From positions 1-37,879 of the forward strand of contig JAHDHV010000014.1 of the NCBI GenBank assembly GCA_020631155.1: a stretch of DNA of 37,879 nucleotides. The letters run 5' to 3'. Under the pieces are notes generated by a model, which saw nothing but the letters and a program-made list of their open reading frames with translations, did not search any database and was not told the DNA's origin. This document shows positions 7,027 to 35,342 of the stretch, piece after piece. Source of the DNA: Bacteroidota bacterium (GTDB lineage: Bacteria; Bacteroidota; Bacteroidia; Chitinophagales; UBA2359). Numbering within the stretch: position 1 is the first letter of the stretch; every line of letters begins with the position of its first letter. Made by a program: the position numbers and the translations under genes.

Positions 7027-7034
7027 GCAATGCT

Positions 7035-7138
7035 TAAGTGCCAAGCACTATTTAATTGTGCACAATTTTGTGCTAAAGTATTAAAAATGAGTAGTTTAGT
7101 CTTTTACTATTGTAACATTAATTTTGCCTAGATACTTA
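7035..7138 (+). repeat. Dispersed 104-bp repeat R1, copy A
   Basis: This element begins TAAGTGCCAAGCACTA and ends GATACTTA, so its ends share a short inverted TAAGT. It contains the hairpin AGTGC-CAA-GCACT and the palindrome AATTGTGCACAATT. Copy B at 30195-30298 is inverted and differs at 11 of 104 positions by my count. A partial copy C lies at 18949-18999. Confidence 0.85.
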
Positions 7139-8730: not shown

Positions 8731-8848
8731 TAAAAAATCATCATTTGACAACTAACACACATATAAAACATTAACTATTCATAAATGTGTAATGGCTAAA
8801 GTCTTCGTTACAGAACTCATTCAAAAAGAAACTAAAAAGTGCCAAAAT

Positions 8849-8938
8849 ACGAATCACTAATCTACTAATCACGAATCCACGAGTTGTTAAAATAGCTACA
8901 AACTGTTTGGTGGAAAAGTACAGTATTTGAAACATACC
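8849..8938 (+). repeat. Dispersed ~90-bp repeat R2, copy 2
   Basis: Contains CTACTAATCACGAATCCACG, ACAAACTGTTTGGTGGAAAA and CAGTATTTGAAACATACC. Similarity to copy 4 (35254-35342) extends weakly upstream through a GTTACA...ACTCATT region. It lies 258 bp before the VWA lipoprotein gene. Confidence 0.75.
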
Positions 8939-13979: not shown

Positions 13980-14951
13980 GTTTAACTTTTGCAGTTAAAT
14001 CAAAAAGATACATTAACTAAAGTAGCAGTTTCTTTGAATTTTGAGTTGTTCTATTTATTATGTAAACCCCACTATAACTTCGTTATGCTTACATTTTTCA
14101 CCTTATATAGCATAAAAAGTCACTTTACCTTCATCATTTAACTTATTATTTCCGAATTACTTAGAAAATATTTTTTTTTAGGAAAAATTTTTTTCAAAAA
14201 ATCATGATTAAAAGCAGTTTTATATTATCTTTGTAAAAAAAAGTAAAAAGCATTTGAAAATATTTTCATTGTTATAGAACATTATCCAACATAAAAAAGT
14301 TATTACTTTCAAATTTATCAAAACGCGCTTTTCTATTTAGTTCATTTTTAACTTAAAAATATAGCAAAATGAGCTTGTATAGCACATTTAAGTGTTAAAT
14401 TTGTTAAAAAAGTCAGGATAAACACCTTTTTTCCACTCTCATAAGATAAAGTACATTTTAAGTCAACTATGCCAATCTACTAAAACTATATTAAACTACC
14501 CATTTAACATTAGCCCTCACTCATAAAAAACCAGCATTACCTTGATATAGTAAATAAATTTGACATGTTTAAGTAGTTATAAAAAGCCTGACTCAAATAA
14601 TTTTTTAAGTACCAACTAAGTACTGCAAGTGAAAATAATTTAAGTAATTGAAACATAATAACACATTTTACATTAAAATATAATTAAACTGTAATTTTGT
14701 TTTCGCGCAGTAATTGTGTCTAGTTTTTACTTTGGAAAGTTTTTTTAAAAAAAATCAAAAAAATAGCATTACATTATCTACACTTAAACTGTCTTAATAT
14801 TTTTTACTTAACATTTATTTTATCATTTATTATGCAATAGTACTTATAACATCTAAAATACATCTTTATTTTACACTAGCCTAATCAATCACTTATAGAC
14901 ATAAGATGTTTAAAACTATGTGAAAGTATTTTTGCCAAAACTAATGAAGCT
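13980..14951. other. Long AT-rich gap without recognisable genes
   Basis: No open frame or RNA family is recognisable in this ~970 bp. Two items stand out: a nested hairpin at 14060-14094 (ATGTAA/TTACAT enclosing ATAAC-TTC-GTTAT), and an isolated perfect -7 word TATCTTTG at 14226-14233 on the plus strand, about 720 bp before the next gene. Neither is enough to call an RNA gene. Confidence 0.4.
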
Positions 14952-17908: not shown

Positions 17909-18547
17909 CTTGTTGAATCAGTAGTTGAATGTTTATACCTTAGTAATTTTTAAATGATGCAAAGAAGATTTAGTTATTAGATTTTTTATAGCTAAAACTA
18001 AACCAAATTTATCCTACCATTTTCAAGCTCCCAAAAAATAGTCTTAGAGTGCTTACTTAAATGGTACAATTAGGGCTAGTGCTCATCAAGTTTTGGTCTA
18101 TTAAAACAATTCAAATGAAATCATTCTTTCAGTTAGTAAAAACTTTTCTATACAATACAAAACATTAATAATGAATGTATTATATCAAACATCTAAGACC
18201 GCATCATCACTTAAAATCAATCAGATTAATGCACTTTTTAACCATCATTTAGCGCAGAAACTCATTATTCTTTACTAAAACAACTTGTGTGCACTAAAGT
18301 AGTTGTTTGATTAAATCAAGATAACCAGTTAGCATAAATTGTGCTCAATATTCTTTGCAAAGAAAAAATTATTAGTAGAAAACCCTGTCTCTTGTAATTT
18401 TTTTTTACAAAAAATAGCACAACAATTTCTATAATAAGTACCTACACAAAATAAAGTGTGTTTTTTATACATAAGACATTGCAGACCAAAGCCCCAGCAC
18501 AAACTTAGGCGCACTTATATGGTGCGTGGCACTTAGAGATTGTCTTA
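17909..18547. other. Repeat-rich gap upstream of yfiR, first part
   Basis: No gene is seen. On the minus strand a -7-like TAAATTTG lies in the ~100 bp upstream of yfiR, with no clear -33 partner. A 14-bp perfect palindrome TTCTTTGCAAAGAA lies at 18351-18364. The remainder of the 1.6-kb gap up to the TonB receptor gene holds the mobile repeats listed separately. Confidence 0.4.
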
Positions 18548-18706
18548 GTAGTCAGTCAAGATAAAATTGACGATTGCTTTTGGCGTTTTTTGCTCCCTAG
18601 CTGTGTTACAAAGCCTCGCCGTAGCTTTGTATGCCTACGTTTTGCGCCTTGCTAGGGAACAAAAATCACTCAACAGCAACCCGTCATTTTAACGTTGACT
18701 AACTAC
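18548..18706 (+). mobile_element. MITE-like element M, copy 1 (159 bp)
   Basis: The element starts GTAGTCAGTCAA and ends TTGACTAACTAC, imperfect terminal inverted repeats that extend weakly inward (TAAAATTGACG against CGTCATTTTA; TTTTTGCTCCCTAG against CTAGGGAACAAAAA). It is flanked on both sides by TTA. The core contains TACAAAGC/GCTTTGTA arms. It carries no open frame, so it must be mobilised in trans. Copy 2 at 22181-22341 differs by four substitutions and a 2-base indel, which implies recent spread. Confidence 0.88.
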
Positions 18707-18746
18707 TTAGGCAAATTTCTGAAATAGAAAATTTGGTACATCTCGT

Positions 18747-18814
18747 TTTCAAATATCGCGTTTTTTGAGGTATATAGTAAAACTATAGCCCCTATAAAAA
18801 GGCGATATTTGAAA
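18747..18814. repeat. 68-bp inverted repeat
   Basis: TTTCAAATATCGC (18747-18759) pairs perfectly with 18802-18814, and an inner TATAGT/ACTATA pair brackets the centre. It starts 40 bp after element M copy 1. It could be a second tiny palindromic element; only one copy is in the window. Confidence 0.6.
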
Positions 18815-18948
18815 GCAAAAGACCTGTTTTTTAAATCAAAGCATCAACTCAAAACAACCTCTTATCATGTAGCGTAGTAGTTAGTTGTAAAGCAAAGCAG
18901 ACACTATCTATTAAGAAATGTTACAGTAATCAACTGAAACCATCATTT

Positions 18949-18999
18949 TAAGTGCCAAGCACTAATTAATTGTGCACAATTTTGTTCTAAAAAATTGAC
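18949..18999 (+). repeat. Dispersed repeat R1, partial copy C
   Basis: The first ~45 bases match R1 copies A and B (TAAGTGCCAAGCACTA then TTAATTGTGCACAATTTTGT). Similarity stops after TTCTAAAAAATT. It is a truncated copy within the cluster of repeats between the TonB receptor and yfiR genes. Confidence 0.8.
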
Positions 19000-19495
19000 T
19001 TTCATTCTTTTAATCAAACAAAGAGTCCCGTTTAATTATTGTGTAGTACTAAGTACCTTAACATTCCCCAAAAACTATATTTATCTCTAAAAAATTAGAT
19101 TTTTTTAAAAAAGCCTATAGTAATTAGGTAATTCATTATTTCCGCATTACTAAGATAGTATATCCACTAAAAAAAAGTAATTTGTTATATGCACTGCTCT
19201 ACTAAATTAGGTAAGCCATAGGCCATTTAGTTAGAGTAGTGTTTAGATAAAAAAGTTTAATAATCTATATCAAAAAGTTTGTCAGAAAGTTGTAAGTTTT
19301 TCACCTACAATACCAATGCACTCTTTTTGAACGTTTTTTTAGACTAAAAAAGTGCTAATTAGATACAAACCTTGTTGATAAACTGAAAAATAACTGTATT
19401 TGTTTACAAACAAGTCCATGAATTTTAAAGAGCTTTTATCAAGATAGTCAAATAAATGTACAATTTTTTTTTCTTATTTTATACTTAACTCTTAG

Positions 19496-21625
19496 TTAAT
19501 AATACTTAAAAATGACTTTGGTATGTAATTGTCTGCCTATTTGCAGCAATTGCCTAGGCCCTGTTTGCAGCACATTAGGCTGATAAAAGTTTGTTCCTAG
19601 CACATCATTGACTGTTCCCATAAACTGCATTCCTAGTTTTTTGAAGCGTAATTCTTTGGTAGATAATGTGAAATTAAGTCTAGTTTTTGAGGGCAATGCA
19701 ATGGGTGTTGTAATAAATGGGTTGCCATGTGTTGTTTCAATGGCAGGATAATAATTAAGACGTGTATTTACCTGAATAGTGGGTGTGATTCTGTAAGTAA
19801 ATGCCAAGCTTGCACGTTGTGGATACAAATTTGTGCCATTGCTCGCATGTGTATAAGCATAACTCAAGCGCGCGCTTGCCCTTTTGATTCGATAACGGAA
19901 TTGTACTTCAAGACCACTAACACTGGTATTGTTGGCTTCATTTTTCCACTCATTAGTTGTCTCATCTTTTATAATATTATTACTAATGATGCCATGATAT
20001 AAAGAAACATCTGCTTCTACTGCTTTATTAAGCCGATGCATGATGTTTACTTCTGTATTATGGATAACACTGGGTTTCAGTGATTTAGCTGTTGTTGAGC
20101 CATCAGTTGGTGTTAATTCCAAAATAGTAGGTTCTCGGTATCCTTGATTAAAGAAAGCCTTTAAATAGGTTTGTTTGAGTGGTTGATAAATCATTCCTGC
20201 TTTGAAGTTAGTCAAAAAGCCATAATTGCTATTGTGTGTTGCTCGCCCACCTACAATGACAAAAAACTTATCTTCCAAAAAAGCTTTTTCCAATTGAAGA
20301 AAAGCGGTATGTGTTGTGTATTGGAAAAAAGGCAAGCGACTTGGATTGCCGTCTGTTGTCCAAAAGTTATTAGGCAATGGAAAATTATATACATCTGTGG
20401 TATTGACTAAATCGCTGTATTCAAAATTATATCCTGTGTGTATGCAAAAATGTTTATCTAAAAAAGTATTAAAATAGGTATAGAAACGATGTCGTTTAGA
20501 GCCATTTAATGAATGATCGGAGTAATCTAGGGCAAAATGGTTGTTAATTTCCGTTTCATCCAGGGGGATAGTTCGCCCACCATCACCAAATAATTCCTCA
20601 AAATAGGTCGTATTAATGTCATAGCGATACAGCTCCCCTTTTATTTTCTCTTGATAATATTGATATTCTAAATGCAGTAGATGTTTGCCCTGAAAACGAT
20701 GTTGCCAGCCTAGATAATACAAGCCAAAATTGCGTTGGTCGGTATTGTGGTTGTCATTCTGCAAATTAACATATTGTAATCCTTTATTACCTGAGTGATT
20801 AAGGTAATAATCTACCCCACCATAAAAGCTTTTGTACTTGGCGTTCACAGAAATAGGAATACCTAAACCGCTATTGGCATAAGTTACATTTGTTGTATTC
20901 ATTCCATTAGCAAAATTAGGAAATCCTTCTGAAAATAAGGTTGTATCTTGGACAAAATCTGTAAAATCCCTGCCTGTTGTATGATAAGCCCTTGCATTCA
21001 CATTCACATACACCTGCCCTACTTTTTTGGCCATTACCAAGCTCACTGCCTTCCGACCTTGTGAGCCAGCTTCCACAGCAACCTCCATAGTTTCATAGTT
21101 TTTAGAGGCGTTTTTGGTAATCACATTCACTACCCCTGAATAAGCATTAGCACCATATTGTACGCCTTGCGGTCCTTGTGTAATTTCTATGCGGCTGATG
21201 TTGTGGGTAGCAAATTGATGACTTATAAATGCTTGGGCATTACTCAAACTTCGCATTTCCCGTCCGTTGATCAACAATAATAATTTATCAAAATTACCTG
21301 CAATACCGCGTTGCTCTCCTGTTCTAAAAAAACCATTATCAATGGTACTCATACCGGGAATATCGTCTAGTATATCTTCTAAATTATAGTAGCCTCCATT
21401 GATTATTTCTTTTTCATCAAAACGGAAAATAGTGGCGGTTCGCAAATTATCATCCGCATCCACCACACTTAATACGTTGACTTCCATCAAATCCTCCAGT
21501 TTCATTTCTAGCATATCAAAAATAGACAAATCAATATCCTCATCCTGTGCCATAACAAAGGAAGGAAACAGTGTACAAAAGGCTATTGCTATTAAGGTCA
21601 GTATATAATGTAACGATACGTTCAT
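19496..21625 (-). CDS. TonB-dependent outer-membrane receptor
   Basis: A Sec signal peptide ends at SFVMAQ. An acidic TonB-box-like region follows (MLEMKLEDLMEVNVLSVVDA), then a plug domain (about 60-175: TATIFRFDEKEIINGGYYNL, LLLINGREMRSL, ISRIEITQGPQGVQYGANAY, SGVVNVITK) and a ~530-residue beta barrel ending in the aromatic strand HTKVIFKYY. It lacks the carboxypeptidase-like N-terminal domain of SusC proteins and is the classical ~700-residue type. Its VLSV-DADDN leader resembles receptors encoded next to DUF4154 (YfiR) genes, and the next genes on this strand are YfiR and a histidine kinase, so uptake or sensing is probably linked to them. The ligand cannot be read from sequence. A 1.6-kb repeat-filled gap now separates it from yfiR. 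Confidence 0.92.
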   Translation of the reverse strand: MNVSLHYILTLIAIAFCTLFPSFVMAQDEDIDLSIFDMLEMKLEDLMEVNVLSVVDADDNLRTATIFRFDEKEIINGGYYNLEDILDDIPGMSTIDNGFFRTGEQRGIAGNFDKLLLLINGREMRSLSNAQAFISHQFATHNISRIEITQGPQGVQYGANAYSGVVNVITKNASKNYETMEVAVEAGSQGRKAVSLVMAKKVGQVYVNVNARAYHTTGRDFTDFVQDTTLFSEGFPNFANGMNTTNVTYANSGLGIPISVNAKYKSFYGGVDYYLNHSGNKGLQYVNLQNDNHNTDQRNFGLYYLGWQHRFQGKHLLHLEYQYYQEKIKGELYRYDINTTYFEELFGDGGRTIPLDETEINNHFALDYSDHSLNGSKRHRFYTYFNTFLDKHFCIHTGYNFEYSDLVNTTDVYNFPLPNNFWTTDGNPSRLPFFQYTTHTAFLQLEKAFLEDKFFVIVGGRATHNSNYGFLTNFKAGMIYQPLKQTYLKAFFNQGYREPTILELTPTDGSTTAKSLKPSVIHNTEVNIMHRLNKAVEADVSLYHGIISNNIIKDETTNEWKNEANNTSVSGLEVQFRYRIKRASARLSYAYTHASNGTNLYPQRASLAFTYRITPTIQVNTRLNYYPAIETTHGNPFITTPIALPSKTRLNFTLSTKELRFKKLGMQFMGTVNDVLGTNFYQPNVLQTGPRQLLQIGRQLHTKVIFKYY

Positions 21626-21724
21626 AATGTTTAGGATTAAATGTAGTTGGTGTGTTTAATAAATAAACAATCACTAAACTGTTTCCGTTTGTTGTGTTTA
21701 TTTTTTATTTGGTATTTGAAGGAG

Positions 21725-21732
21725 CAAAGATT
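21725..21732 (-). promoter_or_regulatory. Candidate -7 box of the TonB receptor gene
   Basis: AATCTTTG on the minus strand is one base off the TAnnTTTG consensus and would give a leader of about 95 bases. No clear -33 element is seen. Confidence 0.3.
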
Positions 21733-22180
21733 TTGTATCTCTCATTTTTTTCATAAACTTGGGAATCTATTAATTTAGTTAAATTAAACAAATGTAGCAA
21801 CTATAAAAATCATCAAAAAGTGTTCCTAAAATATTTTTGTCAATTAAACATAGGTCTAACACATTAAAAACAATTATCTATTTTTATTATTTTCCAAGCA
21901 AATCAAGCAACCATTTAGGGCATCCTATTCGTCCTTATTGAAATAAGGTTTACACATCACATCGTATACCTATCTGTAAAATAAACAGCTTAATGTAATC
22001 TATTTGTTTATTTTCCCATCCACTGACTTAGACTTTGAACATTTTTGCTTACCTTAGACACATCATCTGATAATTAATCATAAACTTTTACAAAAAACAT
22101 ATAACATAACAAAAAACACTAATTAAAATTTAGTCTATGTAATTATAATTTAAGGAATAATAAAGTTCCATTTATACTAA

Positions 22181-22341
22181 GTAGTCAGTCAAGATAAAAT
22201 TGACGATTGCTTTTGGCGTTTTTTGCTCCCTAGTTGTGTTACAAAGCCTCGCCGTAGCTTTGGCTATGCCTACGTTTTGTGCCTTGCTAGGGAACAAAAA
22301 TCACTCAACATCAACCCGTCATTTTAACATTGACTAACTAC
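22181..22341 (+). mobile_element. MITE-like element M, copy 2 (161 bp)
   Basis: Same element and orientation as 18548-18706. It is flanked by TAA on both sides (22178-22180 and 22342-22344), so both copies fit a 3-bp TNA target duplication. The 2-base length difference is a GC insertion near the centre. The rest of the 21626-22757 gap holds the R2 copy 3 and AT-rich DNA without a gene. Confidence 0.88.
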
Positions 22342-22599
22342 TAAGACTAATTTCAAACAAATAGAGCATTTTATATAAAAAACGTAGACAATAAGTGGTA
22401 TGTTTCATTCTCCTCTAACACTTAAATTTCTAAAATCACCTTTTAGCTGTTAGAAATTGAGGAGCAGTAGTGAGCAATGACAAATTACTTTTTGATTTTC
22501 TTAATGGGTATAAGTTCTTGTTTTTTAACTGACTACATGCCATAGAATTAGGCAAAAATCATGCATAAAAAATTATCCAATCAGAGAATTAGTCTCATT

Positions 22600-22689
22600 A
22601 CGAATTGCTGTTCTACGAATCACCCATCTACAATTACTAAAGTAAATACAAACTATTTGGCTGAATCGTACAGTATTTGAAACTTACCC
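22600..22689 (+). repeat. Dispersed ~90-bp repeat R2, copy 3
   Basis: A more diverged copy: CTACGAATCACCCATCTACA, then ACAAACTATTTGGCTGAA and ACAGTATTTGAAACTTACCC. It ends 68 bp before the SusC start codon. Confidence 0.65.
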
Positions 22690-27423: not shown

Positions 27424-27602
27424 TTTTAGAGTTTGGAAAGTTGCAAAGTTATAAGGTTTTAAAGTTTTTTATTTTTAAAATAAATTTTAAAAACAAGGCC
27501 TATTTTTTTGTTAATTAAAGGTATACAAATTTTAATTAAATTGTTATTATTTTAGTCAATAAAATAAAAGGCGAAAACCTAACTTAGCTCCAAACTCTAA
27601 AA
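27424..27602. repeat. Inverted pair of a short intergenic repeat
   Basis: TTTTAGAGTTTGGA (27424-27437) is repeated inverted at 27589-27602. The same word occurs at 31923-31934 and, shortened, just after the M1 peptidase stop. Words such as AGGTTTTAAAGTT also recur within this 356-bp gap. No gene is seen. Confidence 0.6.
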
Positions 27603-27766
27603 GGTTTAGTAGGTTTTAAAGTTGTAAAGTTTTCCACATATTAAATTAATCATTAATTATTGTTTAAAAAGTTGGAATTCAACAAATAACTAAAGTATTA
27701 AGATTTTCTAAACCTCAAAACAGTCAAATTATTAAGCACTTTTCTATTATAAAAAACTCAAAAAAA

Positions 27767-30194: not shown

Positions 30195-30298
30195 TAAGTA
30201 GGTAGACACAATTAATGCTATAATAGTAAAAGACTAAACTGCTCATTCCTAATACTTTAGCACAAAATTGTGTACCATTAAATAGTGCTTGGCACTTA
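30195..30298 (-). repeat. Dispersed 104-bp repeat R1, copy B
   Basis: The minus strand reads TAAGTGCCAAGCACTATTTA through GAGCAGTTTAGTCTTTTACT to CTACTTA. It differs from copy A (7035-7138) at 11 of 104 positions by my count. It lies immediately upstream of the TPR gene start and could carry its promoter or leader. Confidence 0.85.
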
Positions 30299-35110: not shown

Positions 35111-35253
35111 TAGACATCATCAATCACTTTTTTGAGTTTCTTTCTCTGGGTATAAACTACTGATTATTAAATACTTTTATAAAAAATAGGCTAACTAAAA
35201 CTGTCGTTACAAAAATCATTTAACAAGAAACCAATCAGTAAAAAAGTCCGAAA

Positions 35254-35342
35254 ACGAATCACGAATCTACTAATCACGAATCTACGAACTGTCAAAGTAG
35301 CCACAAACTGTTAGGTAGAAAAACACTGTTTTGAAACATACC
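35254..35342 (+). repeat. Dispersed ~90-bp repeat R2, copy 4
   Basis: ACGAATCACGAATCTACTAA, then GAACTGTCAAAGTAGCCACA and GTTTTGAAACATACC. It ends 15 bp before the methyltransferase ATG; an in-frame TTG of the repeat (35331) could even extend that protein. Confidence 0.75.

Follow-up and report, generated by a model that had tools for sequence, protein, structure and literature searches.

Two near-identical repeats of about 160 bp lie on either side of a single gene in a 37,879-nt stretch of DNA from a member of the Bacteroidota (hereafter, the window; contig JAHDHV010000014.1). Their arrangement raises the question of whether they are mobile elements and, if so, what moves them and which part of them has been kept by selection.

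Mobility and distribution of the repeats

Comparison of the two copies confirmed what the initial annotation had described from the sequence: they are separated by four substitutions and a single indel of 2 bases, point in the same direction to the left and right of a gene with a TonB Plug domain, and have target duplications of TTA and TAA, respectively (Table 1). The 2-nt difference (GC) shortens the innermost hairpin of copy 1. Both repeats are near-complete palindromes predicted to fold into hairpins of very high stability (z = -6.7 and -8.5), and the number of chance matches to their 23-bp end pattern expected in the window is 0.

Table 1. Positions of the two element copies, their target duplications, and the intervening gene in the window
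Feature	Position	Strand	Remarks
Element copy 1 (159 bp)	18548-18706	folded strand, minus	covariance model score of minus strand, 75.5 bits
Copy 1 target duplication, left	18545-18547		TTA inside CTTAG
Copy 1 target duplication, right	18707-18709		TTA
Copy 1 conserved core and inner stem	18584-18668	-	match to model R1
Element copy 2 (161 bp)	22181-22341	folded strand, minus	consensus length
Copy 2 target duplication, left	22178-22180		TAA inside CTAAG
Copy 2 target duplication, right	22342-22344		TAA
Copy 2 conserved core and inner stem	22217-22303	-	match to model R1
TonB-dependent receptor gene	19496-21625	-	Plug domain PF07715; host gene between the copies, outside the element

Further copies were sought in the genome containing the window, a fragmented draft of 6.5 Mb in 666 contigs. 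The end pattern matched 111 times, and a reversed control pattern did not match at all. A search with the element itself gave 40 strong matches, and the genome holds approximately 35-40 copies. Identical triplets flanked 33 of the 35 copies for which both flanks were checked. These were TTA in 20 cases and TAA in 12, with a C...G context in 32/32, and the middle base agreed between both triplets in 33/34 (Fisher p = 2e-8). The insertion target is thus CTWAG, nearly always used as C^TWA^G; since the C and G are near-invariant, a 3-bp TWA duplication (C^TWA^G) and a 5-bp CTWAG duplication are indistinguishable. One copy, L017, is located at CTAG. Some copies sit within other dispersed repeats, and paralogous intact versions of these have a single CTWAG; for example, positions 27573-27603 of the window are identical at 31 of 31 bases across the junction of copy L022.

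The MITE-like mobility with TNA duplications that had been proposed for the pair was therefore upheld by consistent ends, many copies, and paralogous empty sites. The elements measure ~155-166 bp, carry TIRs and target duplications, and encode no transposase ORF. They are real mobile elements and not chance repeats. Recombination between the two copies in the window may, as the initial annotation proposed, delete or duplicate the 3.5-kb segment. Derivatives of 41-47 bp that consist of the TIRs without the central core (described below) were also detected, 2 in the genome containing the window and 28 in 1.2 Mb of genome G255. Their spread in two genomes indicates that the core, whether it aids movement or only accompanies it, is not strictly required.

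The elements were almost exclusively intergenic (146 of 148). Analysis of these 148 elements revealed no bias in orientation relative to neighboring genes (58/53 for upstream genes and 60/60 for downstream genes), and no linked gene recurred near elements beyond members of common families. Replichore bias was absent from the closed genome G255, sampled over a complete 1.2 Mb (8+/6- versus 6+/11-, p = 0.29), and there was no consistent GC-skew bias. Element copies often lie within or beside a second dispersed repeat (TTAAGTGCCAAGCACTA...TTGTGCACAATTTTGT...), which occurs many times in the genome and at positions 7034-7138, 18948-19015, and 30195-30298 of the window. Another dispersed intergenic repeat family (AATCACGAATCTACTAATCACGAATC...) is present in the window at 1566-1630, 8835-8927, 22603-22667, and 35240-35332.

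A conserved folded core in elements with different ends

Full-length similarity to the elements faded rapidly among relatives, and a central piece persisted. The conserved part is a core of ~48 nt, not the outer ends, and has covarying stems and invariant internal loops. Alignment of 49 non-redundant sequences, nearly all from Bacteroidota (alignment A1), gave the core consensus AGGC-nnAAA-ACRYAGN-CWTAGC-loop-GCTAMG-RCGAGKM-TTTnn-AACR and was used to build a covariance model. Together, the core and the arms fold one strand into a long hairpin interrupted by two near-invariant internal loops, AGGC/AACG and ACRYAGN/RCGAGKM. The folded strand of copy 2 scored 91.1 bits with the covariance model, versus 26.2 bits for the plus strand.

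Substitutions in the alignment followed the proposed pairing. The 5-bp core stem nnAAA/TTTnn was paired in 49 of 49 sequences, with compensatory changes at three of its five pairs. Over the core and inner arms there were 330 double-changed cells versus 121 in shuffled alignments, and none of 500 shuffles gave a count as high; sliding the pairing partner reduced the count to 57-134. One detail is contrary to the proposed strand: in the innermost stem, the second pair is conserved as an A.C mismatch on that strand (44/49) and as G.T on the other. Searches of the core against Rfam gave no match at gathering or E-value thresholds.

Structural variants of the core also occur. In G228, the inner hairpin of the core is enlarged in three elements (L291, L302, and L309), giving a match of 105 nt versus 87. 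In G255, four elements (L333, L334, L336, and L337) contain a further hairpin of ~55 nt (TCGCAGATTCACGAACTC...GGGCGTGAGC) at a fixed point in the core internal loop.

Elements with unrelated terminal repeats had this core in common, both within a single genome and between genomes of Bacteroidota and Pseudomonadota. The window type has terminal repeats of the form GTAGTY-AGTCAA... and ends GTAGTYAGTCAA. The end types associated with the core include GTAGTC, GTACTC, GTGGTC, GTAACG, GGAATG, GGGATG, TACAATTT, TACGAATT, and others, all belonging to elements of similar length (~155-166 bp), most of which have TNA duplications. At least three core-bearing end types coexist in the genome containing the window. 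A weak match to the core model at 14042-14122 of the window (minus strand; 16.9 bits, E = 0.035), which is AT-rich, is probably a decayed element of a different end type (ends ...TTATTTCCGAATTACTTAG). In Membranihabitans marinus CZ-AZ5, whose genome has more than 300 such element ends, some elements (L266-L274, L276, and L279) are expanded to 248-715 bp between identical ends. These expansions hold nested small hairpin repeats (e.g., GGTCGATTTACGACC types), and an ORF check of them found no transposase.

An IUPAC pattern of the core matched at least 106 stretches in named genomes. Among the matches listed, most were from Saprospiraceae and other Chitinophagales-labelled Bacteroidota, and others were from Bacteroidales MAGs, Aquimarina, and a single Comamonas. 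Cultured carriers include Membranihabitans marinus CZ-AZ5 and Lewinella cohaerens DSM 23179. As judged by its content (cco oxidase genes, 67% G+C), the contig from Comamonas is genuine. BLAST searches with the Comamonas element identified the core on plasmids of Cupriavidus, Mitsuaria, Comamonas, and Martelella, and a Bacteroidota element used as query added Variovorax. The Pseudomonadota elements scored 45-90 bits with the covariance model from alignment A1, on the same strand. Distribution within Bacteroidota was patchy, as expected for mobile DNA: the model matched 13 of 395 genomes, and five genomes of the family that are 96-100% complete (G001, G004, G005, G006, and G011) had no DNA match. 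No match to the core or element was found in phages, viral contigs, or E. coli. These elements are thus MITEs by their mobility, with a folded core that crosses phyla.

The family is apparently undescribed; no published description of it was found in the open-access literature. REPs are palindromes of 20-40 bp that are associated with a REP-associated tyrosine transposase (RAYT), and the size and target duplications of the window elements argue against membership in that group. Two other candidates were rejected. The E. coli consensus of intrastrand-triplex motifs (PMC4666352) differs, and the core string tried against the GTAG/CGTC REPs was absent from the paper that describes them (PMC3733652). 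The CIR repeats of alphaproteobacteria, as reviewed in PMC2229807, are similar in being ~110-bp repeats with a phylogenetically conserved proposed RNA structure; they differ in their described two-armed structure with a GANTC motif.

Candidate sources of the transposase

A transposase of the IS5 family, acting in trans, had been suggested by the initial annotation. The 3-bp TNA duplications known from IS5-family MITEs were indeed observed for the window type and for most other end types, but the proposed source was not supported for the window end type. Searches of the window's genome with profiles PF01609 and PF13359 identified only three DDE_Tnp_1/DDE_Tnp_4 loci, and no IS5-family element with window-type ends was found among them. 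One ISL2/IS5-like transposase gene, whose reading frame contains an interrupting stop codon, was present at L105:980-2015 (G000:C664), with 16-bp perfect inverted ends (AGACTGTATATGCCAA) that are unlike those of the window elements.

We also searched 23 genomes for DDE_3 domains. The window's own genome had no match, and elsewhere in this set only fragments without matching ends were detected; multi-copy IS elements are often missing from draft assemblies. The closed genome of a relative, G236, carries an IS630-family element of 1,215 bp (L311) in six full copies, with a two-ORF transposase (HTH_32 and DDE_3) and no core. This element and the core elements of G236 have in common a 14-bp terminal repeat (AGTGCTGCGTCAAG) and a CTAG target. 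The arms of the window type resemble those of the G236 core elements through intermediates in G010 and G012, and CTAG targets were observed for the G010, G015, and G236 types. IS630 elements duplicate TA (2 bp), whereas the window type duplicates TWA within CTWAG. The sequence similarities suggest that the window end type is likely mobilized by an IS630-type transposase; since a 3-bp TWA duplication is atypical of IS630, we consider this attribution likely and no stronger. IS5-type enzymes may serve the remaining end types that have TNA duplications, for which no partner was found.

A comparable case is RUP of Streptococcus pneumoniae, a MITE mobilized by IS630-Spn1 (PMC2229807). Like the elements studied here, RUP is a short intergenic non-autonomous element with ends that match an IS630-family element and with a TA-containing target; it differs in that the available part of PMC2229807 describes no conserved folded core shared by elements with different ends.

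Strand bias and a possible role of the fold

We compared mismatches in the paired arms using an alignment rule that treats G.T and A.C alike, with the core setting the strand on which they were counted (minus in the window). For 48 non-redundant elements, there were 171 G.U, 30 A.C, 249 purine-purine, and 71 pyrimidine-pyrimidine mismatches. The bias was toward G.U in 45 of the 48 elements and in the opposite direction in none. It was also evident in the outer arms alone (G.U versus A.C, 82:13) and in the Pseudomonadota elements (26:5), which were found by BLAST and not by the model. Such an excess of G.U on one strand is predicted if a folded single strand is selected, and not if selection acts on double-stranded DNA.

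Recent changes among resident copies did not show this bias. At paired positions of 34 resident copies from the window's genome, we counted 19 changes to G.U and 16 to A.C (9:10 when distinct changes were counted), a ratio that differs from that of the deep alignment (Fisher p = 1e-4 / 4e-4). This comparison draws on 35 events from a single genome. In these copies, C>T and G>A changes were about equally frequent (26 and 21, respectively), indicating that the deep bias does not result from mutational strand asymmetry. The loss of G.U bias suggests that the fold is selected at propagation, and that resident copies drift. A structure acting in trans would give no advantage to the descendants of its own copy, so a role in cis is the simplest reading.

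The explanation that we favor, to which we assign about an even chance, is that these are non-autonomous transposons of ~160 bp in which the folded single strand acts in cis in mobilization. A DDE transposase supplied in trans would recognize the terminal repeats and insert the element at CTWAG. The folded single strand, either an RNA transcript or single-stranded DNA, would be a step in propagation or a strong aid to it. Well-folded copies would leave the most descendants, and resident copies would decay neutrally. It is possible, if somewhat unlikely, that the folded strand with its universal core works with several unrelated transposase specificities and serves as a "handle" for swapping terminal repeats, and with them transposases, across phyla.

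The initial annotation had regarded a match to a conserved RNA gene family as grounds for rejecting the MITE reading. The middle of the element does hold a folded motif that is conserved and specific to one strand. The element also moves, however, so neither reading excludes the other. We nevertheless think it unlikely that transposons have spread the core as an RNA gene with a regulatory or host-beneficial function, with a few expressed master loci and decayed copies elsewhere. In favor of this idea, the core shows structure, strand specificity, and conservation across phyla, and nearly all elements are intergenic; however, the resident copies have no detectable constraint, the elements are not oriented relative to neighboring genes, and their patchy distribution indicates that hosts generally do not need the core.

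The elements might also be ordinary MITEs, with an interior that survives from an ancient IS as a fossil passenger and a hairpin that merely follows from the length of the terminal repeats. This would account for the movement of TIR-only derivatives and the neutral drift of resident copies. It is quite improbable, since a passenger would not have stayed conserved across two phyla and so many end types, its loops invariant and its stems showing compensatory changes, and would not produce the large G.U excess on one strand only.

The fold might instead make insertions tolerable, with folded RNA insulating the site as an RNase III site or transcript end. A precedent reviewed in PMC2229807 is the Correia/NEMIS elements of Neisseria, which are ~155-bp intergenic hairpin MITEs that are transcribed as stem-loops and proposed to be cut by RNase III. 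Intergenic position and very stable hairpins agree with this idea, which is nonetheless very doubtful for the window family, as it calls for selection in resident copies and for a relation to gene orientation, neither of which was found. The window family also differs from Correia/NEMIS in having one core over phyla and end types, and resident copies without fold constraint.

Least probable of all is lagging-strand single-stranded DNA transposition as in IS200/IS605, with the core as the recognized hairpin: selection of a one-strand fold in the propagating lineage fits it, and single-stranded DNA also tolerates G.T and purine-purine mismatches, but there was no replichore bias in G255 or consistent GC-skew bias, and the elements have inverted ends and duplications, which are absent from IS200/IS605.

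MITEs are usually recognized by their ends, and whatever lies between is dismissed as junk. The family described here, which we explain preferentially by a cis-acting fold, reverses this usual view: its ends vary, and its middle stays the same in Bacteroidota and Pseudomonadota alike. Should the fold act in mobilization, non-autonomous transposons would possess a structure that works in cis whatever the type of transposase. If the core is an RNA gene, it would represent a phylum-crossing RNA family missing from Rfam. On either reading, model R1 provides a searchable tool.
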